Positions 1,163 to 29,915 of a DNA stretch of 64,000 nucleotides are shown piece after piece (the first letter of the stretch is position 1; every line of letters begins with the position of its first letter). The notes beneath the pieces were generated by a model. It did not search any database, had not been told where the DNA came from, and saw only the letters and a program-made list of their open reading frames with translations. This DNA is from Actinotalea solisilvae (lineage in GTDB: Bacteria; Actinomycetota; Actinomycetes; Actinomycetales; Cellulomonadaceae): contig NZ_JADDKQ010000001.1 of NCBI RefSeq assembly GCF_016464425.1, positions 372,001 to 436,000 of the forward strand, written 5' to 3'. A program made the translations under genes and the position numbers.

Positions 1163-1168
1163 CGCGCC

Positions 1169-8915: not shown

Positions 8916-11198
8916 GTGCCCGTCACCACCACCCCGCCGACGTCGCTCGACGTCCCGGCCCTGCTCGCCGGGCTGACGCTCGAGGAGAAGGTCGGCCTGC
9001 TCGACGGCGCCGACCTCTGGCGCACGCGCGCCGTCGAGCGGCTCGGCATCCCGAAGATCATGGTCTCGGACGGCCCGCACGGCCTGCGCGCCCAGCACGA
9101 GCAGGGCGACCACCTCGGCGGGCTCGAGGCCGCGCCCGCCGTGGCGTTCCCACCCGCCGCGGCGACGGCGTCGTCGTGGGACGTCGCGCTGCTCGGCCGC
9201 ATCGGACGCGCGCTCGGCGAGGAGGCGCGGGCCCTCGGCGTCTCGGTCGTCCTCGGCCCGGGCGTCAACATGAAGCGGTCGCCGCTCTGCGGGCGCAACT
9301 TCGAGTACTTCTCCGAGGACCCCTTCCTCGCCGGCCGCCTCGCGTCCGCCATGGTCGACGGCACGCAGGGCGTCGGCGTCGGCGCGTCGCTCAAGCACTT
9401 CGCCGCCAACAACCAGGAGACCGACCGCATGTCGGTCTCGGCCGAGGTCGACGAGCGCACCCTGCGCGAGATCTACCTGCCGGCGTTCGAGACCGTCGTC
9501 ACGCGCTCGCAGCCGTGGACCGTGATGTGCTCGTACAACCGCATCAACGGCGTCTTCGCCTCGCAGGACCCGTGGCTGCTCACGACCGTCCTGCGCGACG
9601 AGTGGGGCTTCGAGGGTCTCGTGGTGTCCGACTGGGGAGCGGTCTACGACCGCGACCGCGCCGTCGCGGCGGGCCTCGACCTGGAGATGCCGTCGTCCGG
9701 CGGCGTCGGTGCGTCCGCGGTGCTCCGCGCGCTCGAGGCCGGCACGCTCTCCGAGGCGGAGGTCGACCGGGCCGCGGCCCGCGTGCTCGAGCTCGTGTCC
9801 CGCTCCCTGCCCGCGCTCGGCGCGGGCCGGACGTACGACGAGGACGCGCACCACGCGCTCGCCCGCGAGGCCGCCGCCGACTCCGTCGTGCTCCTGGAGA
9901 ACGACGGCGTGCTGCCCCTCGCCCCGACGGGCGGTGCGGTCGCCGTCGTCGGCGAGTTCGCCCGGTCGCCGCGCTTCGGGGGCGGCGGCAGCTCGCAGGT
10001 GACGCCGACGCGGCTCGACGACGCGCTCTCCGAGCTCCGTGCCGGGCTGGCCGGCCGGGAGGTGCGCTTCGCGCCCGGCTTCACCCTCTCGGACGAGACG
10101 CCCGCCGCGGAGGCCGCGCGCCTCCGGGACGAGGCGGTCGAGGCCGCGCGCGGCGCCGAGGTCGCCGTCGTCCTCCTCGGCCTGCCGGACGCGTACGAGT
10201 CCGAGGGGTACGACCGGCAGCACATCCACCTGCCGCCCCAGCAGGTCGCCGTCCTCGAGGCCGTCGCGCAGGTCGCGGCGAAGGTCGTGGTCGTGCTCAC
10301 CAACGGGTCCGTCGTCGAGGTCGCGGGCTGGCGGCAGCACGCCGACGCGCTGCTCGAGGCGTGGCTGCTCGGCCAGGCGGGCGGCGGGGCCGTCGCCGAC
10401 GTGCTGCTCGGCCGGGTGAACCCGTCGGGCCGCCTCGCCGAGACGATGCCGCTCGCGCTCGAGCACAACCCCGCGCTCGGCAACTTCCCGGGCACGGGCG
10501 ACGTCGTGCGCTACGGCGAGGGCCTGCTCGTCGGGTACCGCTGGTACGACGCGCGGCGGCTCCCGGTCGCGTACCCGTTCGGCCACGGCCTGTCCTACAC
10601 GACGTTCGCCTGGGCGGACCTCGAGACCGAGGTCGTCGAGGACGGCGCGGCACCGCGCGTGCGCGTCGCGCTCACGGTGACCAACACCGGCGACCGCGCC
10701 GGCAAGGACGTCGTCCAGGTCTACGTGCGCGACGAGGACGCGTCGGTCTTCCGGCCCGAGCAGGAGCTCAAGGGCTTCGCGAAGGTGGCCCTCGAGCCCG
10801 GCGCCTCGACCCGCGTCGAGCTCGAGCTCGACGCGCGCGCGTTCTCCTTCTGGCACCCCGTGCTCGGGCGCTGGGTCGTCGAGCCGGGAGCCTTCACGGT
10901 GCGCCTCGGCGCCTCGTCGCGCGACGTCCGCCTCGAGCGGACGGTCGACCTGGCCGGGGAGCCGGTCGTGCTCCCGGTCGACGCCGACTCGACGGCCGCG
11001 CAGTGGCTCGCCCACCCCGTGCTCGGCGACCGCCTCCGCGCGGTGCTCGACGGCACGAGCCACGGTGCGATCCTCGCGGACCCGGAGGTCGGCCAGATGA
11101 TGAGCGCGATCCCCGTGCGGCGGCTGGCCCGGTTCCCCGGGTCACCCTTCTCCGAGCAGTGGCTCGAGGACACGCTCGCGGCGCACGCCGCGGGGTGA
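8916..11198 (+). CDS. GH3 beta-glucosidase
   Basis: A 760-residue glycoside hydrolase family 3 enzyme. The N-terminal barrel holds DGPHGLRAQ, the KHFAANNQE substrate-binding motif and the nucleophile aspartate in GLVVSDWGAVYD. The second alpha/beta domain carries GGGGSSQVTP, and a C-terminal fibronectin-III-like domain spans roughly residues 585-690. There is no signal peptide, so it acts inside the cell on imported oligosaccharides. GTG at 8916 is preferred because GGAGG lies 5 bases before it; upstream in-frame starts fall in the promoter. Hydrolysis of terminal beta-glucosyl residues is the family activity; linkage preference cannot be read from the sequence. Likely repressed by the divergent LacI protein. 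Confidence 0.93.
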   Translation: MPVTTTPPTSLDVPALLAGLTLEEKVGLLDGADLWRTRAVERLGIPKIMVSDGPHGLRAQHEQGDHLGGLEAAPAVAFPPAAATASSWDVALLGRIGRALGEEARALGVSVVLGPGVNMKRSPLCGRNFEYFSEDPFLAGRLASAMVDGTQGVGVGASLKHFAANNQETDRMSVSAEVDERTLREIYLPAFETVVTRSQPWTVMCSYNRINGVFASQDPWLLTTVLRDEWGFEGLVVSDWGAVYDRDRAVAAGLDLEMPSSGGVGASAVLRALEAGTLSEAEVDRAAARVLELVSRSLPALGAGRTYDEDAHHALAREAAADSVVLLENDGVLPLAPTGGAVAVVGEFARSPRFGGGGSSQVTPTRLDDALSELRAGLAGREVRFAPGFTLSDETPAAEAARLRDEAVEAARGAEVAVVLLGLPDAYESEGYDRQHIHLPPQQVAVLEAVAQVAAKVVVVLTNGSVVEVAGWRQHADALLEAWLLGQAGGGAVADVLLGRVNPSGRLAETMPLALEHNPALGNFPGTGDVVRYGEGLLVGYRWYDARRLPVAYPFGHGLSYTTFAWADLETEVVEDGAAPRVRVALTVTNTGDRAGKDVVQVYVRDEDASVFRPEQELKGFAKVALEPGASTRVELELDARAFSFWHPVLGRWVVEPGAFTVRLGASSRDVRLERTVDLAGEPVVLPVDADSTAAQWLAHPVLGDRLRAVLDGTSHGAILADPEVGQMMSAIPVRRLARFPGSPFSEQWLEDTLAAHAAG

Positions 11199-11381
11199 GC
11201 CCGGCCGCGCGCTCGTCGGCCCCGCGTCGCCCTGGGTGCGCGGGGCGGACGGCCGCCCGGCCGGGACGTTGTGCCCTCGACGCCCGGCGCACCCGCTCGC
11301 ACGCTGGGAGTGCGCGCCGGACGTCGTCGTCCACCCCACCGATGGGGCGCGAGGCGGACGTCCCGCGCGGCGGGAGGGGCG

Positions 11382-15991: not shown

Positions 15992-16096
15992 CGCACGACC
16001 GGTCCGACGGCGCCGGCGCGGACGCGTGCGGCACCCCGTGCGCCGCCCGCCCGGCTCCCTGACTCGCGCCGCGCCCCGTCCCTCCTCGCGGGCGTG

Positions 16097-16104
16097 AAGC
16101 GCTT
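16097..16104. promoter_or_regulatory. AAGCGCTT operator core upstream of lacI, probable autoregulation site
   Basis: The palindrome AAGCGCTT (context GTGAAGCGCTTAGGG) lies 26 bases before the regulator's GTG. The same core occurs twice before the sugar operon at 19262-19304, and nowhere else was it noticed in the window. Confidence 0.6.
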
Positions 16105-16129
16105 AGGGTTGGCGCCGGGAGGTGGCCAG

Positions 16130-17251
16130 GTGCCCAAGCGTCCGACGGTGTACGACGTCGCCCAGGAGGCGGGCGTCTCGATCGCCACCGTGTCGTTCAC
16201 GTTCCGCCAGCCGGGGCGGGTCAAGGCCAGCACGCGCGAGCTCGTGCTCGAGGCGGCGCGCCGCCTGAACTACGTGCCGAGCGCGAACGCGCGCGGCCTG
16301 GCCGACGGCCGGACGGGCGCGCTGGGCCTGTACTCGTTCGACATGTTCCTCGAGGCGACCGGGCCGGGTGCCGCGCGGCCGGTGCGCGAGGACCCCGGCG
16401 CCTTCTTCGGCCCCGGCGCCGCGGCCGTGGGCGACCGCGCCTTCGCCGACGACTCGGACGCCGAGGACTTCCGCGTCTTCCCGCTCTACGTCGACGAGGT
16501 CCAGCGCGGATTCGAGGTCGAGTGCGCGCGGCGCGGACGCGCGCTCCTCATCGGGAGCGGCCCGAGCGGCGACGGCGGCGCCGTCATCGACATCGCGAGT
16601 CGCGTGGACGGCCTCGCAGTCTTCCCCGGCGCGCGCTCGGAGGAGATCATCGCCCAGCTCTCGCACCGCCTGCCCGTCGTCGCGTTCGCGATGCCGTACG
16701 GCGCGGGCACGCTCAGCCACGTCCGGGTCGACAACCAGGGCGGTGCCGAGGCGCTGACCGAGCACCTCGTCGTCGACCACGGGATCACCGACGTGCAGTT
16801 CGTCGGGGACCCCGAGATGACGGACTACCAGGAGCGGTTCGCCGGAATGCGCGCCACGCTGGCCCGGCACGGGCTGCCCGTGCCCGACCGCGTGCTCGAC
16901 GCGACCGCGCTCGTCGACGACGCGCCCTACACGGTCGTCCGGAGGTTGGCCGCCGAGGGGCGGCTCCCGCGCGCGCTCGTGTGCGCGAGCGACCAGCACG
17001 CGCTCGGGCTGCTCGACGTCCTCGCCGAGCTCGGCGTGGACGTGCCGGGGCAGGTCGCGGTCACGGGTTTCGACGGCGTCGTGGCCGGCCGCCTCTGCAC
17101 GCCGCCGCTCACCACCGTGCGCCAGCCCATGGAGGCGATGGGGCGCCTCGCGGTCGACGTGCTCATGGCCTCCCTGGTCGACCCCGACGCCGCGCCGGTC
17201 GACCACACGCTCCCGGTCCGGCTCGTCGTCCGCCGCAGCTGCGGCTGCTGA
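16130..17251 (+). CDS. LacI-family regulator of the downstream sugar operon
   Basis: A 373-residue regulator. The HTH is PTVYDVAQEAGVSIATVSFT, followed by hinge NYVPSANARGLADGRTGALG. The sensor domain has the LacI core (RVDNQGGAEALTEHLV, GVDVPGQVAVTGFDG, LCTPPLTTVRQPMEAMGRLA) plus a ~35-residue acidic/Gly-rich insertion after residue 80 that normal LacI proteins lack. GTG at 16130 has GGGAGG 8 bases upstream. It probably binds AAGCGCTT-core operators before itself and before the transporter operon. The intervening HNH gene is on the other strand, so regulator and operon are separate transcripts. Confidence 0.92.
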   Translation: MPKRPTVYDVAQEAGVSIATVSFTFRQPGRVKASTRELVLEAARRLNYVPSANARGLADGRTGALGLYSFDMFLEATGPGAARPVREDPGAFFGPGAAAVGDRAFADDSDAEDFRVFPLYVDEVQRGFEVECARRGRALLIGSGPSGDGGAVIDIASRVDGLAVFPGARSEEIIAQLSHRLPVVAFAMPYGAGTLSHVRVDNQGGAEALTEHLVVDHGITDVQFVGDPEMTDYQERFAGMRATLARHGLPVPDRVLDATALVDDAPYTVVRRLAAEGRLPRALVCASDQHALGLLDVLAELGVDVPGQVAVTGFDGVVAGRLCTPPLTTVRQPMEAMGRLAVDVLMASLVDPDAAPVDHTLPVRLVVRRSCGC

Positions 17252-17457
17252 CGTCTCCCGCGGTCGCACCTCTCCGACCGTCCCCTCGTCCCGCGACGGC
17301 TGGCCTCTCGGCCGGCCGCACCGCTCCGGCCGTCCCGTCGTCCCAGGGCGCCGCGGACTCGGGACGTCTGGTCGAAGCACGCTCCGCGTGTCCGGCGCGC
17401 TCCGCGTGGCCGGCGCGCGCTCCGACCGCCCGCGGTGCGCTCCGACTGCCCGGGGCG

Positions 17458-19095
17458 CTAGAAGGGCGGCTCGTCGTGTCCGGGGTCGGGTGGTCGCGGG
17501 TCGCCGGTGGGCGTGTGCTCGTCGGGTGGGTCGTCGGTCCATGCGGGGCCGGGGTCGTCGGGGGGTGGCGGGTCGGGGTCGGGCCAGGCGGGTGGCCGGT
17601 CGTAGGCGTGGCCGGTCGGTGAGGTCCACACGGTGGTCCCGTCCGCCCCGCGGACGGGGGTCCAGCCGGCGTGGGTCTTGGCGCGGTGGTGGTGGCGGCA
17701 CAGGGCCTGCAGGTTGTCCAGGCGCGTCTGGTCCACGCCCGCACCCGCAGCGCCCGAAGCACGGGCAGCACCCGGGGGGCTCGCGGGCCCGGACGTGCTC
17801 GCGGGGTCCGTCGCGCTGGCGGGGTCTGTGGCGCTGGCGGGGTCTGTGGCGGCTGCGTGATGGTCGTGGTTGAAGGGGTCGATGTGGTCGATGTCGCAGC
17901 GGGTGGCCGGGACGCGGCAGCCGGGGAAGGTGCAGGTGCGGTCGCGGGCGGTCACCGCGTTGCGCAGGGGTTGGGTCGGGGCGTAGCGGCGGGTCGAGCG
18001 GGCCAGGGGCTCACCGGTGGCCGCGTCGACCAGCAGCGGCTCCCACGTCGAGCGCGCGGCCAGGCGCCGCACGAGGTTCGAGGGGATCACCCCGTACCCG
18101 TCCAGCAGGCCGGGCTGGTCCTCCAGGCCCAGGACCGTCGCGGCGGTCGCGGTCAGCGTCAGGTGCGGCGCCCGACCCTGGGTGGTGCGCAGCGGGCGGC
18201 CGTCGGGGTGCATGCCGGCGTCCCACCACCGGGTGGCCAGGTCCACCAGCGCGTCGGCGCGGCGCTGATCCAAGGTCCGGGCATCGAAGCGGTCCCGCTC
18301 CTCCGGTGAGACGTCCCGCGCCAGCGCGGTCAGCGTGGCCTGGACCGCGACCGCGTCCACCGCGGGCAGGTACGCCGACAGCCACGCCATCGCGTCCGCC
18401 GCCGGCACGAGCTCCACCCGCCGCTGGTCGCACGCCCGCCGGTGACGCACCTCCGCACCATCGGGGTCCCGCAACAGCTCCATCCGCCGCAACCGCTGCC
18501 GCAGCTGCGGCGCCGTGCATCCCACGGCCTGCGGCAGCACCGCGGCCGCGACCTCGACCGCCACGTGCTCGGGGACCCGGGCCAGCTCATCGACCAGCAC
18601 CGTCGCCCGCCGCACATCCAGACGACCCTCAGCCAGGGCATCGGCGACCACCGGGACCCGGTCCAGGCCGATCGCCAACCCCACCTTCCCCTCGGCCACC
18701 GCACGCGTCACCCCCAACCGCGCCGCGACCTCATCACCCACGAACTCCGCCCGCTCCCCCACCCGCCGCCGACCGAGCTCGGCCAGCGCCGCCGCCTGAC
18801 CCGCCGCGGCCCACGAGGCGACCCGCTCCCACCCCGCGACCAGCTCCACCAGCGCCGCATCATCGACATCCGCCGGCTCACACCGCGCCAGCACCTGCGC
18901 CAACCCCACACCCGGCACCATCGCGTCCAACGCCGCCGCCAACGGATGACGCTCCGCCCAGGACGGCACCGTCCTCGCCTCCACGGCGCCCTCGTCGGTG
19001 GTGCCCGCGGCCCCGGACGTCGCGGCGTCGTCGAGCAGCGCGACCGCGCCCGCGCGCGTCCCCGCCACCGGCGCCTCGACCACGGAACTCGACAT
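17458..19095 (-). CDS. DUF222 / HNH endonuclease (13E12-type) protein
   Basis: A 545-residue protein. A DUF222 helical region occupies roughly residues 50-340 (ALAELGRRRVGERAEFVGDE, LDVRRATVLVDELARVP). It is followed by an HNH nuclease with CTFPGCRVPATRCDIDHIDPF near residue 395 and LCRHHHRAKTH near 465. The two halves of the HNH are separated by a ~50-residue Ala/Asp/Pro/Ser-rich insertion with a triplicated TDPASA motif. The tail is Pro/Asp-rich. DUF222-HNH genes occur in many copies in actinobacteria and are suspected of mobility; activity is not established. The gene interrupts the sugar locus between regulator and operon. The start is set by a TAGCGT hexamer 7 bases upstream. Confidence 0.9.
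   Translation of the reverse strand: MSSSVVEAPVAGTRAGAVALLDDAATSGAAGTTDEGAVEARTVPSWAERHPLAAALDAMVPGVGLAQVLARCEPADVDDAALVELVAGWERVASWAAAGQAAALAELGRRRVGERAEFVGDEVAARLGVTRAVAEGKVGLAIGLDRVPVVADALAEGRLDVRRATVLVDELARVPEHVAVEVAAAVLPQAVGCTAPQLRQRLRRMELLRDPDGAEVRHRRACDQRRVELVPAADAMAWLSAYLPAVDAVAVQATLTALARDVSPEERDRFDARTLDQRRADALVDLATRWWDAGMHPDGRPLRTTQGRAPHLTLTATAATVLGLEDQPGLLDGYGVIPSNLVRRLAARSTWEPLLVDAATGEPLARSTRRYAPTQPLRNAVTARDRTCTFPGCRVPATRCDIDHIDPFNHDHHAAATDPASATDPASATDPASTSGPASPPGAARASGAAGAGVDQTRLDNLQALCRHHHRAKTHAGWTPVRGADGTTVWTSPTGHAYDRPPAWPDPDPPPPDDPGPAWTDDPPDEHTPTGDPRPPDPGHDEPPF
17801..17854 (-). repeat. Three-copy 18-bp repeat inside the HNH gene
   Basis: Units at 17801-17818, 17819-17836 and 17837-17854 share GCGGGGTCTGTGGCGCTG with few mismatches and encode repeated TDPASA. 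The unit is in frame and lies between the two HNH half-motifs. Confidence 0.85.
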
Positions 19096-19102
19096 ACCGG
19101 AC

Positions 19103-19108
19103 ACGCTA
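19103..19108 (-). promoter_or_regulatory. -10 hexamer TAGCGT of the HNH gene, predicted leaderless
   Basis: On the minus strand TAGCGT is followed by 7 bases and then the ATG at 19095. No Shine-Dalgarno is present. Confidence 0.5.
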
Positions 19109-19246
19109 GAACCGACCACTGACACGACCCGCGCCCGGGTCGAGGCGCTCACCTCTGCGACTCCCGAGCCGCCCGCGGGCACCCGGGACCGACCGCGCCT
19201 CGAGGCCGTTCGCGCCCCAGCGAGCTCGCGCGCACGGCCTCTGCGG

Positions 19247-19275
19247 TTGCGACCGTCCGGTTAAGCGCTTAGTGT
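19247..19275 (+). promoter_or_regulatory. Promoter of the sugar-uptake and glucan-degradation operon
   Basis: TTGCGA (19247-19252), a 17-base spacer and TAGTGT (19270-19275) match TTGnnn-N17-TAnnnT. The perfect palindrome TAAGCGCTTA lies in the spacer and covers the first two bases of the -10, a classic position for repression. Confidence 0.65.
19262..19271. promoter_or_regulatory. LacI operator O1, TAAGCGCTTA
   Basis: A perfect 10-base palindrome inside the promoter of the binding-protein gene. It has the same core as the site before the lacI gene at 16097-16104. Confidence 0.7.
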
Positions 19276-19294
19276 CCCCCTCGTCGACGGTTGC

Positions 19295-19304
19295 TAAGCG
19301 CATA
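19295..19304. promoter_or_regulatory. LacI operator O2, TAAGCGCATA
   Basis: One mismatch from O1; the centres are 33 bases apart, about three helical turns, so two dimers could sit on roughly the same face of the DNA. The site lies downstream of the predicted start of transcription. Confidence 0.6.
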
Positions 19305-19383
19305 GATCCACGAGGTCGCACGCATCCGGCGCAGTTCCCGCGCCGACAACCGACGTCGGTCGTACTCAACGAGGAGGACACCC

Positions 19384-20652
19384 ATGAACAGGACCGTGCG
19401 CGTGAACAGGACTGTCCGCGCAGGCGCCGCCACGTTCGCACTCGCACTCGTCGTCGCCGGCTGCGGCCGCGGCGACGGCGAGGCCGGCGGCGAGGAGACC
19501 GCCGCCGCCGTCGACGAGGGTGCCGCGTCCGGGACCGTCGAGGTCTGGGCGATGGGCACCGAGGGCGAGATGCTCGGCGACTTCGCCGCAGCCTTCACCG
19601 AGGAGAACCCGGACATCGAGGTCGAGGTCACCGCGATCCCGTGGGACGCCGCCCACGACAAGATCGCGACTGCGATCGCCGCCGGGCAGACCCCCGACGT
19701 GTCGATGATCGGCACCACGTGGATGGGCGAGTTCGCCGCGACCGGCGCGCTCGACCCGACACCCGACCTCATCGACGACTCGACCTTCTTCCCGGGCGCG
19801 TGGGAGACGACGGACGTCGGCGGCACCAACTACGGCGTCCCCTGGTACGTCGAGACGCGCGTCCTCTACTACCGCTCCGACCTCGTCGCCGAGCCGCCGA
19901 CCGACTGGGCGGGCCTCACGGCCATGGCCCAGGGCATGCAGGCGGCGGGCGCCGAGTGGGGCATCAACCTCCAGCCCGGGCAGACGGGGGCGTGGCAGAC
20001 CTTCATGCCGTTCGCCTGGCAGGCGGGCGCGGAGATCGTCACCGAGGACCAGGCCGAGTTCACGCTCGACACCCCGGAGATGGTCGAGGCGCTCACGGCC
20101 TACCAGTCGTTCTTCACCGAGGGCCTCGCCCCGACCGAGCTCCCCCAGGGCTCGCTCGAGCCGGACTTCATGGCGGGCAAGATCGGCTCCTTCGTGTCCG
20201 GTCCGTGGCACGTCGGCATCTTGGAGGACACCGACGCCGCGGGCATGGCCAACGTCGCCCTCGCCCCGCTGCCGGCCGGCGCGGAGCAGGCCTCGTTCAT
20301 CGGCGGCGCGAACCTCGCCGTCTTCAAGGACGCCGAGAACCGCGACGCCGCCTGGACGTTCATCGAGTGGCTGAGCCAGCCCGAGGTCCAGGTCCAGTGG
20401 TACTCCGAGGTCAACGACCTGCCGTCGGTCGCGTCCGCGTGGGAGGACCCGGCCATCGCCGACGACCCGTACCTCGGCGTCTTCGGCGAGCAGCTCGAGA
20501 CCGCCGTCGCTCCGCCCTCGATCCCCACCTGGGAGGAGGTCGCGAGCGTCATCGACACCGAGCTCGAGCGCCTGTGCAAGTCGGGGGCCGACCCGCAGGA
20601 GGTCGCCACGACGATCCAGCAGCAGGCGTCGTCCATCGGCACCGGGCTCTGA
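19384..20652 (+). CDS. ABC transporter sugar-binding lipoprotein
   Basis: A 422-residue solute-binding protein of the family 1 extracellular sugar-binding type. The signal is MNRTVRVNRTVRAGAATFAL followed by ALVVAGC, whose cysteine is the lipidation site, so the mature protein is anchored outside the membrane. VEVWAMGTEGEMLGDFAAAF, IPWDAAHDKIATAIAAGQTP and FVSGPWHVGIL are typical of this class. GAGGAGG sits 7 bases before the ATG. First gene of a six-gene operon. The position resembles that of the Listeria Lin1841 sophoro-oligosaccharide binding protein (from memory), but ligand identity is inference. Confidence 0.93.
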   Translation: MNRTVRVNRTVRAGAATFALALVVAGCGRGDGEAGGEETAAAVDEGAASGTVEVWAMGTEGEMLGDFAAAFTEENPDIEVEVTAIPWDAAHDKIATAIAAGQTPDVSMIGTTWMGEFAATGALDPTPDLIDDSTFFPGAWETTDVGGTNYGVPWYVETRVLYYRSDLVAEPPTDWAGLTAMAQGMQAAGAEWGINLQPGQTGAWQTFMPFAWQAGAEIVTEDQAEFTLDTPEMVEALTAYQSFFTEGLAPTELPQGSLEPDFMAGKIGSFVSGPWHVGILEDTDAAGMANVALAPLPAGAEQASFIGGANLAVFKDAENRDAAWTFIEWLSQPEVQVQWYSEVNDLPSVASAWEDPAIADDPYLGVFGEQLETAVAPPSIPTWEEVASVIDTELERLCKSGADPQEVATTIQQQASSIGTGL

Positions 20653-20653
20653 C

Positions 20654-21670
20654 GTGTCCACGGACACCACCGTCCGGCCCGGGGCTCACGCCCCGGACCG
20701 GACGGACCCCCCGGCGGTGCGCAAGCACGCCCCGCTCTACTGGCGGCACACCCGCGCCGCGTGGGGCTTCGCGCTCCCCTTCGTCCTGCTCTTCACGGCC
20801 TTCACCGCGGGGCCCGTGCTCATGTCCCTCGCGATGGCCGTGACGGACCTGCGCAGCCGCGACCTGCGCGACCCGTTCGCCGTGAACTTCGTCGGCATCG
20901 AGAACTTCGTCACGGTGTTCGAGGACCCGCTCTTCCGCAAGGCAGCCCTCAACACGGCGTACTTCGTCCTCGTGGGCGTCCCGCTGACCCTGTGCCTGTC
21001 GCTCGGCATCGCGGTGCTGCTCAACTCCGGCATCACGCGGCTCAAGACGTTCTTCCGGGTCGGCTACTACATGCCCGTGGTCACGAGCATCGTCGCCGTC
21101 GCCGTCGTGTGGCGCTTCCTGCTGCACCCCGACAGCGGCCTGCTCAACGAGGTGCTGGGGCTCTTCGGCGTCGAGGGCCCGCACTGGCTCGGCAGCACCA
21201 CGTGGGCGATGCCGTCCATGATCGCCATGGCGACGTGGCGGTCGATCGGCACGCTCATCATCATCTTCGTCGCCGGTCTCCAGGGCGTCCCCACGTCGCT
21301 CCACGAGGCCGCGGCGCTCGACGGCGCGGGGGCCTGGCAGCGCTTCCGGCACATCACCATCCCGACGATCCGGCCGACGCTGCTCTTCGGCGCGGTCATC
21401 ACCGGCATCGGCTACGTGCAGTTCTTCGAGGAGCCGTTCGTCATGACCCAGGGCGGCCCGCTCAACAGCACGCTCTCGGTCGCGTTCCACACGTACAACC
21501 AGTTCGGCTTCGGCAACTACGGCTACGCCGCGGCGATGAGCTACGTGCTCTTCCTCGCCGTCGTGCTGCTCACGCTCGTGCAGTTCCGCTTCCTCGGCGA
21601 GCGCGACGACCGGCCGCGCCGTCGACGTCGCCGGCCCGTGCCGGTCGCGAGCAAGGAGATCGGACGATGA
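20654..21670 (+). CDS. Sugar ABC transporter permease (MalF type)
   Basis: A 338-residue permease with six hydrophobic segments. It carries the EAA loop EAAALDGAGAWQRFRHITIP that contacts the ATPase. The long Arg-rich tail (DDRPRRRRRRP) is cytoplasmic. The GTG start is one base after the binding-protein stop, and its end overlaps the next gene by ATGA, so the two permeases are made together. It imports oligosaccharide delivered by the binding protein. Confidence 0.93.
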   Translation: MSTDTTVRPGAHAPDRTDPPAVRKHAPLYWRHTRAAWGFALPFVLLFTAFTAGPVLMSLAMAVTDLRSRDLRDPFAVNFVGIENFVTVFEDPLFRKAALNTAYFVLVGVPLTLCLSLGIAVLLNSGITRLKTFFRVGYYMPVVTSIVAVAVVWRFLLHPDSGLLNEVLGLFGVEGPHWLGSTTWAMPSMIAMATWRSIGTLIIIFVAGLQGVPTSLHEAAALDGAGAWQRFRHITIPTIRPTLLFGAVITGIGYVQFFEEPFVMTQGGPLNSTLSVAFHTYNQFGFGNYGYAAAMSYVLFLAVVLLTLVQFRFLGERDDRPRRRRRRPVPVASKEIGR

Positions 21671-22566
21671 CGACCACCGACCGCACCGCCGCGCCGGTCG
21701 TCCCCGACGACGCCCCGGCCGCGCGCCGCACGAAGGAGCGGCCGATCGGCGAGGCGCGCCCCCACATCCTCGCCTACGTCGTCCTCGGGCTCGGGCTCGT
21801 CGTCGTCATGAGCCCGTTCTTCTGGATGGCGCTCAGCTCGGTCAAGGGCGAGGGCGAGATCCGCCGCGTCCCGCCGACCTGGTGGCCCGAGGCGCCCACG
21901 CTCGACAACTTCCGCGAGCTCTTCGCGCGCCTGGACTTCCCGCAGTTCTTCACGAACTCGATCCTCGTCGCGACCGTCGTGACCCTCGGCAACCTCGTGT
22001 TCTGCTCGATGCTCGGCTACGTCCTGGCCAAGTACGACTTCGCCGGCAAGAGGCTCCTGTTCCGGGTCGTGCTCGGGACGCTGATGATCCCCGGCATGGT
22101 CACGCTCGTGCCCCTGTTCGTCCTCGTGGCGAACATGGGCATGGTCAACACCTACTTCGGCCTGATCCTGCCGTTCCTCGCGGCGCCGTTCGGCGTCTTC
22201 CTCATGCGGCAGTTCTTCCTCGGCATCCCGGACGAGCTCATCGACGCCGCGCGCGTCGACGGCGCCGGCGAGGCGCGGATCTTCGTCCAGATCGTCGTGC
22301 CGCTCGCCAAGCCGGCGCTCGCGACGCTCGCGATCCTCACGTTCCTCGGCTCCTGGAACAACTTCCTGTGGCCGCTCGTGGTCGCGACCACGGAGGACAA
22401 GTACACGCTCCCGGTAGCGCTCGCGCTCTACAGCACCGGCCAGAACCAGACGGACTACGGCCTGCTCCTCGCGGGCGCGGTCGTCGTGCTCGTGCCGATC
22501 CTCGTGCTCTTCCTGCTGCTCCAGCGCTACTTCGTCCAGGGCGTCGCCATGACGGGGATCAAGTGA
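21667..22566 (+). CDS. Sugar ABC transporter permease (MalG type)
   Basis: A 299-residue second permease with six membrane segments and the EAA-type loop DAARVDGAGEARIFVQIVVP. It ends with YFVQGVAMTGIK, the normal MalG-type C-terminus. The start ATG overlaps the previous stop (ATGA) and the stop overlaps the next start (TGATG). No ATP-binding subunit is encoded in the operon, so the pair must use a shared MsiK/UgpC-like ATPase encoded elsewhere. Confidence 0.93.
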   Translation: MTTTDRTAAPVVPDDAPAARRTKERPIGEARPHILAYVVLGLGLVVVMSPFFWMALSSVKGEGEIRRVPPTWWPEAPTLDNFRELFARLDFPQFFTNSILVATVVTLGNLVFCSMLGYVLAKYDFAGKRLLFRVVLGTLMIPGMVTLVPLFVLVANMGMVNTYFGLILPFLAAPFGVFLMRQFFLGIPDELIDAARVDGAGEARIFVQIVVPLAKPALATLAILTFLGSWNNFLWPLVVATTEDKYTLPVALALYSTGQNQTDYGLLLAGAVVVLVPILVLFLLLQRYFVQGVAMTGIK

Positions 22567-25500
22567 TGGCTGCCGCCGGACCCCCGTGGGTCCTGCCTGC
22601 CCCCGCCGACGCCGGGATCGGTGCGGTGCTCGTCGACGGCGGCGCCCCCGCGTCGCTCACGGCCGGCCCCCTCGAGCTGGTCCAGCACGCCGCGTCGCCG
22701 TACGAGCCCGGCCTGCTCCAGCTCTGGCTCCGCGACCGCGGGACGGGCGACGTCCGGCCCCTGCTCGGCGCGGGCAGCGGGGGCCGGGTGCACGTCGCGG
22801 GGCGCACGGCCGTCGTCACCGGGCGCACCGACGGCCTCGCCTGGCGCGTGACCTTCGTGCCCGACGACGACCGCCCGGCCTGGGCCTGGCACGTCGAGGT
22901 CCGGGCCGAGGGCACGGACGGGTCCGGGGACGACGGCGCGCGCGAGATCGACGTCCTGCACGCGCACGACGTCGCCCTGTCGGGCACGGGCGCGCTGCGC
23001 GCCAACGAGCTCTACGTGAGCCAGTACCTCGACGTGCGCCCGCTGGGCGAGGACTCGCCCGAGGGGCCGGCGCTGGCCGTGCGGCAGAACCTGCCGCAGG
23101 ACGGGCGGTACCCGTGGTGCGTGCTCGTGGCCACGACGCCCGTCGTGGGCTGGGCCACCGACCTCCTCGACGTCGGCTGGGCCGACCGGACCGGGCGGCG
23201 CCCCGGACCCGCCGGCGACCTGCCGTCGCGCCGGCGCCAGCACGAGCACACGCTCGCGACCCTGCAGACCGCGCGCGTGCGGCTCGCGCCCGGCGAGGTC
23301 CACCGCGTCTCGTTCGCGGGCCTCGTCCTCGCCGACCACCCGGCGGCGACGTCGGCCGACGACCTCGAGCACGCGCGCGAGGCGCGCGCGTTCGCGACGG
23401 CGAGCGCGCCGTGGGGCCGCCGACGCGACGACGCGGAGGAGCGCGACGTGGCGGCGGGGCGCCCGGCGCCGTCGGGCGTCTACGACAGCGGGCGGACGCT
23501 CGTCACCCGCGACCTCACGGCCGACGAGCTGCGGGCCCGGTGGCCCGGCCGGTGGCGTGCGGTCGAGGAGGAGGCCGACGGCCGCCCCTGGTCGTTCTTC
23601 ACCGGCGACGCCCAGCACGTCGTCACACGCGCCAAGGAGCTCGCGGTCCTCCGTCCGCACGGCACGATCCTGCGCACGGGCGCGTCGGCGCTGCCCGACC
23701 CGGCGGGCCTCACGGCGACCGCCTGGATGACCGGGTCGCCGCTCTCCTACCTCACCCGCGGCCACGCGTCGTCGGGCCGGGTGCTCACGACGGTCCGCGG
23801 GTACCTCGGCCTGCACCGCGCCTACGGCGTGCGCGTGCTCGTCGAGGTGGGCGGCCGGTGGCGTCTGCTGGACCTGCCCTCGGCCTTCGCGATGACGCTC
23901 GACGCGGCGCACTGGACGTACGCGCTCGACGCGGACGTCGAGGGCGAGGCCGGCACGGTCGAGGTGCGCACGTCGGCCCCGCCCGGCGAGCACCGCGTCC
24001 GGCTCGAGGTGCGCACCACGGCCGGACCGGAGCGGCGGGTCCTCCTCGCGCTGCACCTCGCCACGGACGCCGACCCCCTGCCGTCGGCGCGCCGCACCGA
24101 CGTGCGCGAGGACGGCGCGACCCTCGTCGTGCGCAGCCGCGACGGCGGGGCGCTCGAGGTCACGGCGACCGCGCCGGTCGAGGTGGGCGACGGCGGCGCC
24201 CTGGTCGACGACGGCGTGGCCCGCGACCGCTCGACCCTGACCCTGACGACGACCGGCGCGGTGACGCTCGACCTGCGCGTGCGCGCCGACGAGCCGGGAC
24301 CTCCCGCCGCCCGGGCCGCGCGGACGCCCGCGGGGGCGTCCGGGCCCGCGGCCGCGTCCGACGACGTCGCCCGCGCGTGGTGGTCGCAGGTGACGGCCCT
24401 GCGCGTCGGGGACGCCCCCGCGGCCGAGCCGCTCGCGGTGAGCCTGCCCTGGCTCGTGCGCGACGCGCTCGTGCACTACCTCTCGCCGCGCGGCCTCGAG
24501 CAGTACACGGGCGGGGCGTGGGGGACGCGCGACGTGACGCAGGGACCGCTCGAGCTGCTCCTCGCGCTCGACCGGCCGCGCGACGCGCGGGCCCTCCTCC
24601 TGCGCGTGCTGAGCGCGCAGAACCCCGACGGGACGTGGCCGCAGGCGTTCGGGTTCCTACCCGGCGACGAGGGCTTCCGGCACGAGCCGCCGCACGGCGA
24701 CGTCGTGCACTGGCCGGTGCTCGCGCTGGGCCGCTACCTGCTCGCGACCGGCGACGCGTCCGTGCTCGACGAGGTCGTGCCCTTCTGGGCGCCCGGGACC
24801 GGGCACGGGGCCGCCGACGCACCGCGCGGCGCGGGGCGGGGCACGAAGCGGGGCACGGAGCAGGGCACGGAGCAGGGCACGGTGCGCGAGCACGTCCGGC
24901 GCGCGCTCGACCGCGCGCGGTCCGACGTGCTGCCGGGCACGCGCCTGGTCGCGTACGGGCACGGCGACTGGAACGACTCCCTCCAGCCCGCCGACCCGGC
25001 GATGGCACGCACCCTCGCGAGCGCGTGGACGGTGACCCTGCACCACCAGGCGATGTCGACCCTGGCGGCGGGGTTGCGGACCGCCGGGACCGACGAGGAC
25101 CTCGCGCGCGCCCTCGACGAGGACGCCGCGGCCGTCGCCGCGGACCTCGACCGCCACCTGCTCGTCGACGGCGAGCTCGCGGGCTACGTCCAGCTCGACC
25201 CGCCGGCCGCACCGGGCGCGACGCCCGAGGCGCGACGCCTGCTCGTCCACCCGCGCGACGCCGAGACGGGCCTGCGGCACGGGTCCCTGCAGATGATCCA
25301 CGCACTGGTCGCCGACCTGCTCGACCCCGCGCAGGCCGAGCGCCACGTCGCGCTCGTCCGCGAGCACCTCTCGGGGGTCGACGGCGTCCGTCTGTTCGAC
25401 CGGCCGCCGGCCTACCACGGCGGCCCGATGCGGCACTTCCAGCGGGCCGAGACGGCGAGCTTCGTCGGCCGCGAGATCGGCCTCATGTACGTGCACGCGC

Positions 25501-26066
25501 ACCTCCGCTGGTGCGAGGCGATGGCCCGCTGGGGTGACGCCGACGCGCTCTGGCTGGGCCTGCTCCAGGTGCTGCCGCCCGCGGCGGCCGCGACCGTGCC
25601 GGGTGCGCGCCCGCGGCAGGCGAACGCCTACCCCTCGAGCTCGGACGCCGCGTGCCTGCACCGGGAGGACTTCGCGGCGCGCTACGACGACGTGCTCACC
25701 GGCGCGACGGGCCTCGAGGCCGGTTGGCGCGTCTACTCGTCCGGCCCTGGCGTGCTGGTGCGCGTCGTCGCGCAGTCGTTGCTCGGCGTGCGGCGCCGGG
25801 CGTCGGTGGTCGAGGTCGACCCCGTGCTCCCGGCCGCGCTCGACGGCCTCACGGCCGCGGTGCCGCTCGACGGCGGCGTGCTGCGCGTCCGGTACCGCGT
25901 GGGGCAGCGCGGGCACGGCCCCGCGGCCCTGCGGCTCGACGGCGCCGAGCTCGCCGCGACCCGCGTGGCCAACCCCTACCGGACCGGCGCCCTCGCGGTG
26001 GACCTCGTGGCCCTCGCGCCCGCGCTCCACCCGGACGGGCCGACGCTCGAGGTCGACCTGCCGTGA
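22566..26066 (+). CDS. GH94-type glycoside phosphorylase, probable 1,2-beta-oligoglucan phosphorylase
   Basis: A 1166-residue cytoplasmic enzyme. About 600 residues of beta-sandwich modules precede an (alpha/alpha)6 catalytic barrel starting near residue 620. The barrel contains GLEQYTGGAWGTRDVTQGP, then YGHGDWND with DWND at residues 801-804, the GH94 general-acid motif. It closes with the C-terminal beta module RVVAQSLLGVRRRASVVEVDP. The size and the LEQYTGGAWGTRD block resemble 1,2-beta-oligoglucan phosphorylases (about 1,100 residues) rather than cellobiose phosphorylases (about 820). Expected reaction: phosphorolysis of sophoro-oligosaccharides to glucose 1-phosphate. The start overlaps the permease stop (TGATG). 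A 12-bp tandem repeat encodes GTKRGTEQGTEQGTV in a loop. Confidence 0.78.
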   Translation: MAAAGPPWVLPAPADAGIGAVLVDGGAPASLTAGPLELVQHAASPYEPGLLQLWLRDRGTGDVRPLLGAGSGGRVHVAGRTAVVTGRTDGLAWRVTFVPDDDRPAWAWHVEVRAEGTDGSGDDGAREIDVLHAHDVALSGTGALRANELYVSQYLDVRPLGEDSPEGPALAVRQNLPQDGRYPWCVLVATTPVVGWATDLLDVGWADRTGRRPGPAGDLPSRRRQHEHTLATLQTARVRLAPGEVHRVSFAGLVLADHPAATSADDLEHAREARAFATASAPWGRRRDDAEERDVAAGRPAPSGVYDSGRTLVTRDLTADELRARWPGRWRAVEEEADGRPWSFFTGDAQHVVTRAKELAVLRPHGTILRTGASALPDPAGLTATAWMTGSPLSYLTRGHASSGRVLTTVRGYLGLHRAYGVRVLVEVGGRWRLLDLPSAFAMTLDAAHWTYALDADVEGEAGTVEVRTSAPPGEHRVRLEVRTTAGPERRVLLALHLATDADPLPSARRTDVREDGATLVVRSRDGGALEVTATAPVEVGDGGALVDDGVARDRSTLTLTTTGAVTLDLRVRADEPGPPAARAARTPAGASGPAAASDDVARAWWSQVTALRVGDAPAAEPLAVSLPWLVRDALVHYLSPRGLEQYTGGAWGTRDVTQGPLELLLALDRPRDARALLLRVLSAQNPDGTWPQAFGFLPGDEGFRHEPPHGDVVHWPVLALGRYLLATGDASVLDEVVPFWAPGTGHGAADAPRGAGRGTKRGTEQGTEQGTVREHVRRALDRARSDVLPGTRLVAYGHGDWNDSLQPADPAMARTLASAWTVTLHHQAMSTLAAGLRTAGTDEDLARALDEDAAAVAADLDRHLLVDGELAGYVQLDPPAAPGATPEARRLLVHPRDAETGLRHGSLQMIHALVADLLDPAQAERHVALVREHLSGVDGVRLFDRPPAYHGGPMRHFQRAETASFVGREIGLMYVHAHLRWCEAMARWGDADALWLGLLQVLPPAAAATVPGARPRQANAYPSSSDAACLHREDFAARYDDVLTGATGLEAGWRVYSSGPGVLVRVVAQSLLGVRRRASVVEVDPVLPAALDGLTAAVPLDGGVLRVRYRVGQRGHGPAALRLDGAELAATRVANPYRTGALAVDLVALAPALHPDGPTLEVDLP
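24840..24887 (+). repeat. Four-copy 12-bp repeat in the GH94 gene
   Basis: Units of GGCACGGAGCAG at 24840-24851, 24852-24863, 24864-24875 and 24876-24887, the two central ones identical, encode repeated GTEQ. In frame, in a surface loop shortly before the DWND catalytic motif. Confidence 0.85.
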
Positions 26067-28285
26067 CCCGCGCCTGGCTCGATGCGGGCCTCCCGGTGGC
26101 CGAGCGGGTCGACGCGCTGCTCGCGGCGATGACGCTCGAGGAGCGCGTCGCCCAGCTCCACCAGGTCGCGAACCCCGACCCGGTCCGCGACGCCGAGGCC
26201 CTGCGCTCCGGCGCCTTCGGGACGTGCATCGTCGCGAGCGGCGCGTTCGCGGGCACGGTCCGGGACGCCGGCACGCAGGCCGCGTCGGTCAACGCCCTCC
26301 AGCGCGTCGCGGTCGAGGAGTCCCGCCTGGGCGTCCCGCTGCTCGTCGCGCGCGACGTCGTCCACGGGCACCGGACGGTCTTCCCGATCCCGCTGGGGCA
26401 GGCCGCGTCGTTCGACGCCGACCTCGTGCGGCGGTGCGCGCGGGCCGCCGCGGTCGAGGCGACGGCCGACGGCGTCCGGTGGACCTTCGCGCCCATGGTC
26501 GACGTCGCCGCGGACGCCCGCTGGGGACGCGTCGCCGAGGGCTGGGGCGAGGACCCCTGGCTCGCGTCGGAGCTCGGGGCGGCCGCGGTCGAGGGCTTCC
26601 AGCACGGCCGCGGCGGCGGCGGGCTGGCCGACCCGGACGCCATGGCCGCGTGCGCGAAGCACTACGTCGGCTACGGCCTGGCGCAGGGCGGGCGCGACTA
26701 CGCCGAGGTCGACGTCGGTCCTGTGACGCTGCACAACCGCCACCTGCGGCCGTTCGTGGCCGCGGTCGAGGCGGGCGTCGCGACCGTGATGACGGCGTTC
26801 CACACGCTCGACGGCACGCCGATGACCGCGCACGTCCCGCTGGTGCGCGAGCACCTCAAGGGCGCGCTGGGCTTCGCGGGCGCCGTCGTGAGCGACTGGG
26901 ACGCGGTCGCCGAGCTCCTCCTGCACCGGGTCGCCGTCGACGGCGCGCACGCCGCGGCTCGCGCGCTGCGCGCGGGCGTCGACGTCGACATGGTCAGCGG
27001 GCTGTACGCCGCGCACCTCGTCCGGCTCGTGCGCGAGGGTTCGGTCCCGGCGGCGCTCGTCGACGACGCGGCCGCGCGCGTGCTCGCGCTCAAGGTGCGC
27101 CTCGGTCTCTTCGAGGACCCGTACACGGACCCCGGGCGCGCCGCGGCCGTCCACCTCTCCCCCGCCCACCGCGCGCTCGCGCGCGAGGCGGCGGCCGCCG
27201 CGGTCGTCGTCCTGCGTGACGACGGCGCCCTGCCGGTGACGTCCGCCGGCGGGGTCCGCGTCCACGTGACGGGCCCGTTCGCGACGGCGCGCGACGAGCT
27301 CTTCGGCACGTGGACGCTCGACGGGCGGGGCGAGGACGTGGTGACGATCGCCGAGGCCGCCGCCGAGCGCCTCGGTCCGTCCGTCACGGTCGACGACGGC
27401 CGGTTCACGGACGCCGCCCTCGTCGCGGCGCGCGCCGCGGACGTCGTCGTCGCGTGCGTCGGCGAGCACCCTGCGCGGTCCGGCGAGGCCAACTCGGTGA
27501 CCTCCCTCGACCTGCCGCCGGGGCAGCGGGCCGCGCTCGAGGCCCTGCGGCGCGTCGCGCGCCGGCTCGTCGTGGTCGTCGTGACGGGTCGACCGCTCGC
27601 GCTCGACGGCCTGCCCGGCGACGCGGTGCTCCTGGTGTTCCACCCGGGCGTCGAGGGCGGTCACGGCGTCGTCGACGTCCTCACGGGAGACGTGCCGGCG
27701 CGCGGCCGGCTGCCCGTGAGCCTCCCCCGCTCGACCGGTCACGTGCCGCTGCACCACGACCACCTGCCGACCGGGCGGCCGCTCGACCCCGACGGCGACG
27801 TCGACCGCTACCGCGACGACCGCGACCCCCCGCTGCACGTGTTCGGCTCGAGCGCCGCGGCGAGCGACGTCGTCTACGGACCGGTGACCACGTCGGCACC
27901 GACGGTCCGCACGGGCGGCGTCGTCACGGTGCGCGCACGGCTGACCAACGGCGGGCCGACCGCCGTGGTCGAGACCGCCCAGCTCTACGTGCGCGACGAC
28001 GTCGCCGAGGTCTCGCGTCCCGTCAGCGAGCTCGCGGGCGTCCGCCGGGTCGCGCTCGACCCCGGCGCGTCGGACGACGTCGTCTTCGACCTCACCTCCG
28101 CGGAGCTCGCCCACCGGGACGCGTCGGGCCGGCCCGCGGCGGTGCCCGGCACCTTCACCGTGCGGATCGGTCCCGACGCGCGCACGGGCCCGACGGCGCG
28201 GGTCGAGCTGCTCGACGCCGACGCCGACGCCGACGCGCACGACGACGACATCGCGCTCCGGCGCCCGGCCGACGCGGGGAGGTGA
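26063..28285 (+). CDS. GH3 beta-glucosidase of the glucan operon
   Basis: A 740-residue GH3 enzyme without a signal peptide. Family landmarks are MTLEERVAQLHQV, GRVAEGWGEDPWL, KHYVGYGLAQGGRDY and the nucleophile aspartate in AVVSDWDAV. A fibronectin-III-like domain follows near residues 615-710, and an Asp/Ala-rich tail ends the protein. It shares only family-level features with the GH3 at 8916. GTG at 26063 overlaps the GH94 stop (GTGA), so the two are co-translated. In the cell it would remove glucose from the short oligosaccharides left by the phosphorylase, as Lin1840 does in Listeria (from memory); the linkage is inferred. Confidence 0.92.
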   Translation: MTRAWLDAGLPVAERVDALLAAMTLEERVAQLHQVANPDPVRDAEALRSGAFGTCIVASGAFAGTVRDAGTQAASVNALQRVAVEESRLGVPLLVARDVVHGHRTVFPIPLGQAASFDADLVRRCARAAAVEATADGVRWTFAPMVDVAADARWGRVAEGWGEDPWLASELGAAAVEGFQHGRGGGGLADPDAMAACAKHYVGYGLAQGGRDYAEVDVGPVTLHNRHLRPFVAAVEAGVATVMTAFHTLDGTPMTAHVPLVREHLKGALGFAGAVVSDWDAVAELLLHRVAVDGAHAAARALRAGVDVDMVSGLYAAHLVRLVREGSVPAALVDDAAARVLALKVRLGLFEDPYTDPGRAAAVHLSPAHRALAREAAAAAVVVLRDDGALPVTSAGGVRVHVTGPFATARDELFGTWTLDGRGEDVVTIAEAAAERLGPSVTVDDGRFTDAALVAARAADVVVACVGEHPARSGEANSVTSLDLPPGQRAALEALRRVARRLVVVVVTGRPLALDGLPGDAVLLVFHPGVEGGHGVVDVLTGDVPARGRLPVSLPRSTGHVPLHHDHLPTGRPLDPDGDVDRYRDDRDPPLHVFGSSAAASDVVYGPVTTSAPTVRTGGVVTVRARLTNGGPTAVVETAQLYVRDDVAEVSRPVSELAGVRRVALDPGASDDVVFDLTSAELAHRDASGRPAAVPGTFTVRIGPDARTGPTARVELLDADADADAHDDDIALRRPADAGR

Positions 28286-28340
28286 GCACCGACCCCCACG
28301 ACCCTGATCGACCGACGACGTTCGACGGAGGGACACGACC

Positions 28341-29915
28341 ATGACCAGAGCACGACGAGCACGGACGGCCGCGCTGGCCACCGTGGCGCTCGCAGCGACG
28401 GGGCTGCTCGCCCTGCCGACCGCGGCCTCGGCCGGCGGAGGGCACGGCGGCGGCCACGGCTGGGGGCACGGCGGGGGCGACGCCGACCGGGCCACGCTCT
28501 ACGAGTACGCCGCCGACACCTGGGCGTCGTTCGAGGCGATGGCGCACCCGGACACCGGCCTGCCGGCGGACAACGTCGCGGGCGACCTCGACCCGGCGTC
28601 CCGCAGCGGGTACACGTCGCCGACGAACATCGGCGCCTACCTGTGGAGCACCGTGGTCGCGCGCGAACTCGGCCTCATCGACCGGCGTGAGGCGCGCGAC
28701 CGGCTGACGCAGACGCTGGGCAGCGTCGCGACGCTCGAGCGCCACGACGACTCGGGCATGTTCTACAACTGGTACAGCGAGGCCACCGGCGAGAAGCTGC
28801 GCGTCTTCCCGACCGACGGCGGCACGGTCTACCCGTTCCTGTCGAGCGTCGACAACGCGTGGCTCGCGACCGCCCTCGTGCTCGTGGGCAACGCCGAGCC
28901 GCGGCTGCGCGACGAGGCCGACGCGATCCGCTCGACCATGGACTTCGGGTTCTTCTACGACCCGGCCGTGCGCCAGCTGCGCGGAGGCTTCTGGGACGAG
29001 CCGCCGGCCGACACCGCCGCGGTCGTCGGGAACTACCGGGACCGCGGGCCGGACGTCTGGTACACCGGCCACCACTACGGGACGCTCAACACCGAGCCGC
29101 GCATGGCGAGCTACCTCGGCATCGCGTGGGGGCAGATCCCGCCCGAGCACTACTTCTCGATGTTCCGCACCTTCCCGGACGCGTGCGACTGGAGCTGGCC
29201 CGAGCAGCGGCCCGTGGGCGAGACGCGCACCTACCTCGGCGTCGACGTCTACGAGGGCGCGTACCGCTACCGCGACATGCAGCTCGTGCCGACCTGGGGC
29301 GGGAGCATGTTCGAGGCGCTCATGGTCGACCTCTTCGTGCCCGAGGCGGAGTGGGGCCCGCAGAGCTGGGGCGTCAACCACCCGCTGACCGTGCGCGCGC
29401 ACATCGAGCACGGCATGGAGGAGGCCGGCTACGGCTACTGGGGCTTCTCGCCCGCGAGCGACCCGCGCGGCGGCTACCGCGAGTACGGCGTCGACGCGAT
29501 CGGCATGGACACGAACGGGTACACGTCCGACCACGAGCGCACGAGCGTCGACCCCGGCTGGGACGACCCCGCGTGCTTCCGCGCTCCGAGCATCCCGACG
29601 GAGTACGGCGACGGCACGGTGACGGCGCACGCGTCGTTCCTCGCCCTGCCCTACGCGCACGACGAGGCGATGGACAACCTCGCGAAGATGCGGACCGAGC
29701 TGGGTGCCTACGGCCCGGGCGGGTTCTACGACTCGGTCGCCGTGCGCAGCGGGATCGTCGCGGAGCGGTACCTGTCGCTCGACCAGGGCATGATCATGGC
29801 GGCGCTGGGCAACGAGCTCCGGCACGACGCCGTGCAGCGGTACACGGTCCAGGGCCCGATCCGGCAGGCGATCCGGCCGCTCCTCGCGATGGAGGAGTTC
29901 AGCGCCGCGGGCTGA
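28341..29915 (+). CDS. Secreted glucoamylase-fold hydrolase, GH144-like
   Basis: A 524-residue protein with a signal peptide ending PTAASA and a His/Gly-rich mature N-terminus. The catalytic region has TSPTNIGAYLWSTVVARELG, GMFYNWYSEATGE, PTWGGSMFEALMVDLFVPE and GYGYWGFSPASDP. These are hallmarks of the PF10091 glucoamylase-like superfamily, which contains the endo-beta-1,2-glucanases of GH144. A secreted endo-enzyme would cut polymer into oligosaccharides for the transporter. GGAGGG lies 8 bases before the ATG; the gap to the GH3 gene is 55 bases. Exact family and bond specificity need comparison; a different PF10091 glucanase is the main alternative. The end overlaps the convergent regulator by 17 bases. 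Confidence 0.75.
   Translation: MTRARRARTAALATVALAATGLLALPTAASAGGGHGGGHGWGHGGGDADRATLYEYAADTWASFEAMAHPDTGLPADNVAGDLDPASRSGYTSPTNIGAYLWSTVVARELGLIDRREARDRLTQTLGSVATLERHDDSGMFYNWYSEATGEKLRVFPTDGGTVYPFLSSVDNAWLATALVLVGNAEPRLRDEADAIRSTMDFGFFYDPAVRQLRGGFWDEPPADTAAVVGNYRDRGPDVWYTGHHYGTLNTEPRMASYLGIAWGQIPPEHYFSMFRTFPDACDWSWPEQRPVGETRTYLGVDVYEGAYRYRDMQLVPTWGGSMFEALMVDLFVPEAEWGPQSWGVNHPLTVRAHIEHGMEEAGYGYWGFSPASDPRGGYREYGVDAIGMDTNGYTSDHERTSVDPGWDDPACFRAPSIPTEYGDGTVTAHASFLALPYAHDEAMDNLAKMRTELGAYGPGGFYDSVAVRSGIVAERYLSLDQGMIMAALGNELRHDAVQRYTVQGPIRQAIRPLLAMEEFSAAG

Follow-up and report, generated by a model that had tools for sequence, protein, structure and literature searches.

What does a compact set of sugar-uptake and glycoside hydrolase (GH) genes allow an actinobacterium to consume? 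The question is raised by an operon of Actinotalea solisilvae (GCF_016464425.1) at 19384-29915 on the + strand of a 64-kb stretch of contig NZ_JADDKQ010000001.1 (positions 372,001 to 436,000; hereafter the window), which belongs to a 4.3-Mb genome in 41 contigs (G000, contig 12). We propose, with a probability of roughly 0.88, that it is a LacI-controlled operon for the use of exogenous beta-1,2-glucan, an uncommon sugar polymer. Hypothetically, a secreted enzyme of family GH193 would cut the polymer outside the cell into oligosaccharides (Sopn), which a binding lipoprotein and two permeases would import with energy from a MalK/MsiK-type ATPase that is shared and encoded outside the operon. 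A cytoplasmic 1,2-beta-oligoglucan phosphorylase (SOGP) would phosphorolyse Sopn with at least three units, releasing glucose-1-phosphate until sophorose is left, and a GH3 enzyme would hydrolyse the sophorose, unusable by SOGP, to glucose. The LacI protein would repress the operon through AAGCGCTT-type operators until it has bound a sugar signal.

This polymer-to-glucose-1-phosphate pathway is predicted from gene order, family membership, residues, fold, synteny and conserved operator-like sites. An earlier note on this DNA had already suggested a secreted enzyme, ATP-binding cassette (ABC) import, and degradation of beta-1,2-glucan fragments by GH94 and GH3 enzymes, and the family, residue and synteny evidence presented here favors that suggestion.

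Gene order

The regulator gene and the six genes of the operon are as follows.

16130-17251, +: LacI-family transcription regulator (PF00356 4e-14, PF13377 8.5e-32)
19384-20652, +: sugar-binding lipoprotein of an ABC importer, Lin1841-like (5ysb, 245.9 bits; lipobox VAGC by eye)
20654-21670, +: ABC importer permease 1 (PF00528 5.8e-16)
21667-22566, +: ABC importer permease 2 (PF00528 8.3e-22)
22566-26066, +: GH94 protein (SOGP) of 1166 residues, predicted acid D804 (SOGP_N, SOGP_2nd and GH94 domains; 5h3z)
26063-28285, +: GH3 beta-glucosidase, predicted to split sophorose (PF00933 4.6e-65)
28341-29915, +: predicted secreted endo-beta-1,2-glucanase, GH193 (PF10091 1.5e-13, DUF3131 3.4e-9)

All six open frames of the operon, with their family matches, lie where the earlier note had put them, in the order binding lipoprotein, permease, permease, GH94 protein, GH3 protein and PF10091 enzyme. 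The junctions read from the DNA (a 1-base gap, a 4-base overlap, a 1-base overlap, a 4-base overlap and 55 bases) bear out its description of genes joined by overlaps of 1-4 bases or short gaps. The range given there, 16097-29915, also contains the LacI gene and a DUF222/13E12-type gene, which its reasoning did not mention. Because six further genomes have the genes from LacI to the PF10091 enzyme in the same order, the arrangement is not a product of chance. A search of NCBIfam assigned the GH94 and PF10091 proteins to no family; the LacI, binding and GH3 proteins received nothing beyond names that fell below the cut-offs.

The secreted enzyme

Family GH193 was founded in 2025 on SkSGL of Sanguibacter keddieii; its members are inverting hydrolases, and the characterised one is specific for beta-1,2-glucan (PMC12102758). 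Over residues 51-523 the window enzyme is 58.2% identical to a protein that we take to be SkSGL, the single relative at E <=1e-30 in a genome (G019) taken to be S. keddieii and placed in the same family as the window. The proposed catalytic residues, acid E252 and base D171, are identical in 21 of 21 aligned sequences. In the S. keddieii protein the two are spaced by 86 positions, as are D160 and E246 of SkSGL (PMC12102758); the residues were matched by this spacing and the absolute numbering is not reproduced, since the paper redefines the start. E252 and F324 align with E239 and F286 of XcSGL, residues of the clan formed by GH144, GH162, GH189 and GH192-194, and are likewise identical in 21/21 sequences. 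The likely region for the third clan residue (XcSGL Y367) has a low predicted local distance difference test score (pLDDT) in the AlphaFold model of the enzyme, for which the mean pLDDT is 81.0 and the predicted template-modelling score 0.84. By eye the N-terminus resembles a signal peptide. As judged from its sequence, then, the secreted enzyme belongs in GH193. The GH144 type named in the earlier note has to be abandoned: no solved GH144 enzyme matched at E <=1, against 58.2% identity to the GH193 protein.

In fold, the model matches the clan. The first 20 rows of a Foldseek search with the model are beta-1,2-glucan enzymes and structural-genomics "putative glucoamylases", and the same two kinds fill the first 15 VIA-align entries (Z 28.6-43.7), the next entry standing at Z 22.2.

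SkSGL and the window enzyme have both proposed catalytic acids in common, at 58.2% identity over the catalytic domain, but SkSGL carries extra N- and C-terminal parts (PMC12102758). The genetic settings differ as well: 2.66 Mb separate the SkSGL and SOGP genes of the presumed S. keddieii genome, whereas the window genes share an operon.

The phosphorylase

The GH94 protein matches the Pfam families SOGP_N (PF21958, 1.6e-43, residues 25-250), SOGP_2nd (7.3e-27) and GH94 (2.4e-6), and carries the motif GDWND at residues 800-804. Against solved enzymes it scores 421.6 bits with LpSOGP of Lachnoclostridium phytofermentans (5h3z), 45.6 with the GH94 domain of a cyclic glucan synthase, 19 with a putative beta-glycan phosphorylase and at most 14.7 with cellobiose phosphorylases. 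The substrate- and phosphate-binding residues of LpSOGP have been named (PMC5309861), and all 14 that we checked are identical in the window protein, as read off a sequence alignment in which the 5h3z chain number is the paper's number plus 1. In paper numbering, Y141, Q621, R630, D631 and W758 are Y150, Q646, R655, D656 and W802 of the window protein; the catalytic acid D760 is D804; R907, R916, E917, Y922 and H924 are R960, R969, E970, Y975 and H977; and Y1004, S1005 and S1006 are Y1057, S1058 and S1059. The same 14 residues are identical in 7 of 7 aligned SOGPs (those of the window, of four relatives with the operon, of S. keddieii and of G063).

Domain content, score and residues all mark the GH94 protein as an SOGP, a placement made on these three grounds rather than on a GH94 tree. 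Both the active-site comparison with a solved 1,2-beta-oligoglucan phosphorylase and the expectation that the protein would fall outside the cellobiose and chitobiose phosphorylases, raised in the earlier note, came out in favor of the beta-1,2-specific assignment; cellobiose, chitobiose and laminaribiose phosphorylase were rejected as identities on the scores. LpSOGP is alike in domain make-up and in every checked residue, but its sequence has diverged, and its catalytic motif is GDWDD where the window protein has GDWND.

The beta-glucosidase and the importer

The beta-glucosidase Lin1840 stacks against and bonds the second glucose of sophorose, at subsite +1, by W271, R572 and Y583 (PMC4757417, PMC12369401). 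The window GH3 protein carries D278, W279, E475, R572 and Y583, and the Lin1840 nucleophile D270 with W271, R572 and Y583 corresponds to D278, W279, R572 and Y583; the last two were aligned to Lin1840 itself, whereas D278 and W279 were placed through the SDW motif and through alignments with other members of GH3. No signal peptide was seen by eye. The enzyme is therefore likely to split sophorose, as far as its residues can indicate.

The best solved relative of the binding protein is Lin1841 (5ysb), and the protein probably binds Sopn in the manner of that type. No ATPase gene lies within the operon, and MalK-type ATPases match in two places elsewhere in the genome. The gene at 28341-29915 gave the only PF10091 matches in the genome. 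With this one gene hit, the search revealed no cyclic glucan synthase, and the polymer is likely foreign; self-made cyclic glucan was rejected as the substrate on the same ground, there being no second PF10091 gene in the genome.

Distribution among Cellulomonadaceae

The operon is complete, from LacI through GH193, in six Cellulomonadaceae genomes besides that of the window. Five are among 22 GH193 loci in named genomes (L002, L003, L004, L005 and L007; loci L052-L056 come from the same genomes and were counted once), and the sixth is G099. Two further loci meet contig ends: L006 (Actinotalea fermentans) has GH3 and GH193 at one, and L008 is interrupted by another. The closest relatives of the secreted enzyme in named genomes are those of Actinotalea and Cellulomonas, and Actinotalea subterranea is one type strain that carries the operon.

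Across 150 genomes of the family, SOGP_N occurs in 34, a GH193 relative in 44 and both in 24, where about 10 would be expected if the two were independent (34 x 44 / 150). Fisher's test gives p ~1e-8, a value that overstates the significance because related genomes are treated as independent. In the 17 listed genomes of the window's own genus, the same six have SOGP and GH193. The two genes are at most 30 kb apart in 17 of the 24 genomes with both, and at most 8 kb apart in seven, which are the window and the six complete operons.

In Flavimobilis marinus (L023 10001-10363) only GH193 residues 188-308 match, at 79%, and a LacI match adjoins on the other strand. The same partial match is present at G061:C2:171803-172165, perhaps in the same genome. 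This fragment is possibly a remnant of the operon.

Regulation

LacI matches adjoin the operon in the six other genomes at 67-76% identity, and the window LacI protein is likely a local repressor of the operon. For lacI itself, a start at 16130 is likelier than the in-frame GTG at 16094 because GGGAGG (16117-16122) lies 7 bases ahead of 16130. The putative control elements, and the gene that separates lacI from the operon, are listed here.

16096-16105, no strand: putative LacI operator (gAAGCGCTTa) before lacI, a AAGCGCTT match
17458-19182, -: DUF222/13E12-type gene (PF02720 5.9e-33)
19260-19306, no strand: two putative operators, GTTAAGCGCTTAGT and GCTAAGCGCATAGA, in the promoter region of the operon with a spacing of 33 bases, TNTAAGCGCTTANA matches

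The window holds two copies of AAGCGCTT, at 16097 before lacI and at 19263 before the binding protein, where 0.27 would be expected from base composition. Allowing at most two mismatches, TNTAAGCGCTTANA also has two matches in the window; 100 shuffles gave a mean of 0.04 and none with two. Sites with 0-1 mismatch to AAGCGCTT are found in the 200 bases ahead of the binding protein in all six relatives and before lacI in four of them, and in five of the six the operator-like sites are paired, 27-31 bases apart, compared with 33 in the window. A strict palindrome filter missed sites in 3/6 relatives, which a looser scan recovered.

The DUF222/13E12-type gene, which by eye has an HNH-type end, is no part of the pathway. 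It was found between lacI and the operon in the window only, without a counterpart in the six complete relatives. As the lacI and binding-protein matches of those relatives are only ~150-220 bases apart, the gene appears to be an insertion that spared the operator-like sites. The conservation of such sites before both the binding protein and lacI argues that LacI may still govern the operon despite the intervening gene.

Alternative explanations

Several observations weigh against a dedicated beta-1,2-glucan operon. In the family genomes, 10 of 34 with SOGP are without GH193 and 20 of 44 with GH193 are without SOGP, and in 7 of the 24 with both, the two genes do not lie within 30 kb of each other (on different contigs in four). 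No lacI-side operator was seen in two of the six relatives by the scan at 0-1 mismatch. The sugar of the binding protein is not fixed by its score, since 3uor, named only as an ABC transporter sugar binding protein, follows Lin1841 nearly equal at 226 bits. Further points of this kind concern the secreted and GH3 enzymes and bear on particular rival explanations.

The PF10091 enzyme might instead be a GH189-like transglycosylase or act on cyclic glucans, so that the operon would process the cyclic glucans of neighbors such as rhizobia and agrobacteria rather than a linear polymer. Its closest solved relatives in sequence and fold are indeed the cyclisation domains of cyclic beta-1,2-glucan synthases; EeSGL1 (8xuj), on which GH192 was founded (PMC12102758), is a weaker sequence match. 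The top fold match is a GH189 transglycosylase domain (8wy1, Z 43.7), no hydrolase, and with that row at the top the fold alone cannot tell hydrolase from transferase. The S. keddieii protein is much closer, however, and its family consists of inverting hydrolases (PMC12102758), which makes a cyclic-glucan operon seem improbable.

A second possibility is that the operon serves laminarin or cellodextrins, in which case the GH94 protein would be a phosphorylase of the cellodextrin or laminaribiose type and the GH3 protein a general beta-glucosidase. The GH3 protein does match general beta-glucosidases best: the JMB19063, 5tf0 and 6r5i types score 449-457 bits, the 5xxl and 9urf types 429-434 and Lin1840 401.4, so that Lin1840 is outscored by five other groups. 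Lin1840 also splits laminaribiose (PMC4757417), and the loop with R572 and Y583 is kept in 6r5i and so is not exclusive to the Lin1840 type. Given these scores and the shared loop, the GH3 enzyme may be a broader beta-glucosidase. The remainder of the operon fits such substrates poorly: the GH94 protein has the SOGP_N domain and the SOGP residue set, cellobiose phosphorylases hardly match it, and the last gene encodes a GH193-type enzyme, whose characterised relative is beta-1,2-glucan-specific (PMC12102758). A laminarin or cellodextrin operon is, in our judgment, quite improbable.

That the operon works backwards, building beta-1,2-glucan out of glucose-1-phosphate, is scarcely credible. Glycoside phosphorylases do catalyse reversible reactions, and beta-1,2-glucan has been produced with SOGP (PMC11842490), but one operon encodes the importer proteins, the GH3 beta-glucosidase and the secreted glucanase together, and the PF10091 search of the genome found no cyclic glucan synthase.

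Comparison with known systems

Beta-1,2-glucan use remains the preferred reading, and two known clusters each resemble part of the operon. Listeria innocua lin1838-1843 comprises LacI, SOGP, GH3 and importer genes (PMC3960220, PMC4757417); the likeness to lin1839-1843 pointed out in the earlier note is genuine and extends to the LacI gene lin1838 (PMC3960220), covering the regulator, the Lin1841-type binding protein, permeases, GH3 and SOGP. The available text of these two papers mentions no beta-1,2-glucanase in the Listeria cluster, whereas the window operon ends with a secreted GH193 gene. Streptomyces griseus SGR_2422-2427 (PMC12369401) shares with the window a GH193 enzyme, permeases and a binding protein of the Lin1841 type, but its beta-glucosidase is of family GH1 and is accompanied by an esterase-like gene, and the text available names neither SOGP nor GH3 for the cluster.

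The window operon unites the SOGP and GH3 module with a GH193 front end, a new arrangement of known parts. No description of an operon with both SOGP and GH193 was found in the literature searched, a search that leaves figures, supplements and most subscription papers outside its coverage; related clusters could appear in Figure 6a and the supplements of PMC12369401.

Beta-1,2-glucans play a part in both symbiosis and infection (PMC12102758, PMC10901819, PMC11228985), and there are few descriptions of how actinobacteria of the soil use them. One operon with every predicted step, from secreted endo-enzyme to glucose-1-phosphate, would provide both a compact test of such use and a genetic marker for it. 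It would also offer well-paired enzymes for making beta-1,2-oligosaccharides, and would give the recently named GH193 a clear physiological setting.

Other clusters beside GH193

We also hypothesize that beta-1,2-glucan use in actinobacteria is modular, a GH193 enzyme and a Lin1841-type importer being coupled inside the cell to one or another of at least three modules: SOGP with GH3, which is phosphorolytic (the window); GH1, which is hydrolytic (S. griseus); and GH39. We regard the odds for and against this wider scheme as evenly balanced. GH39 directly follows GH193 in five of the 22 loci:

L010 11491-13284 (Cellulomonas sp. Leaf395): GH39 protein
L011 11497-13284: GH39 protein
L012 3338-5110: GH39 protein
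L013 11457-13283: GH39 protein
L014 11482-13260: GH39 protein

A Lin1841-type binding protein is present as well in four of the loci, the exception, L012, being cut; relatives of the window's SOGP or GH3 were seen in none of L010-L014. The Pfam search covered the copies in L010 and L013, and the nearest solved relatives of the GH39 protein are beta-xylosidases, at 240 bits. If the modular scheme is true, these proteins would form a new GH39 subfamily active on beta-1,2-gluco-oligosaccharides, and thus a new GH39 specificity. GH1 precedes GH193 in two of the 22 loci (L009 and L020), and GH1 of the same type is present in L050, L057 and L058.

In the window, the last operon gene shares 17 bases with a convergent AAA/LuxR-type regulator gene (29899-32763, -). 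A Micropruina metagenome-assembled genome (L021) has SOGP at 6-3074 (-) and GH193 at 10001-11260, and the peptide-type importer between them (SBP_bac_5, ABC_tran/oligo_HPY) belongs to a different transporter class from that of the window. In another genus of the family (G098; L050 1419-10034), SOGP is divergent from genes for a binding protein, permeases and GH1, so that the SOGP and GH1 modules stand side by side, with GH193 ~16 kb away.

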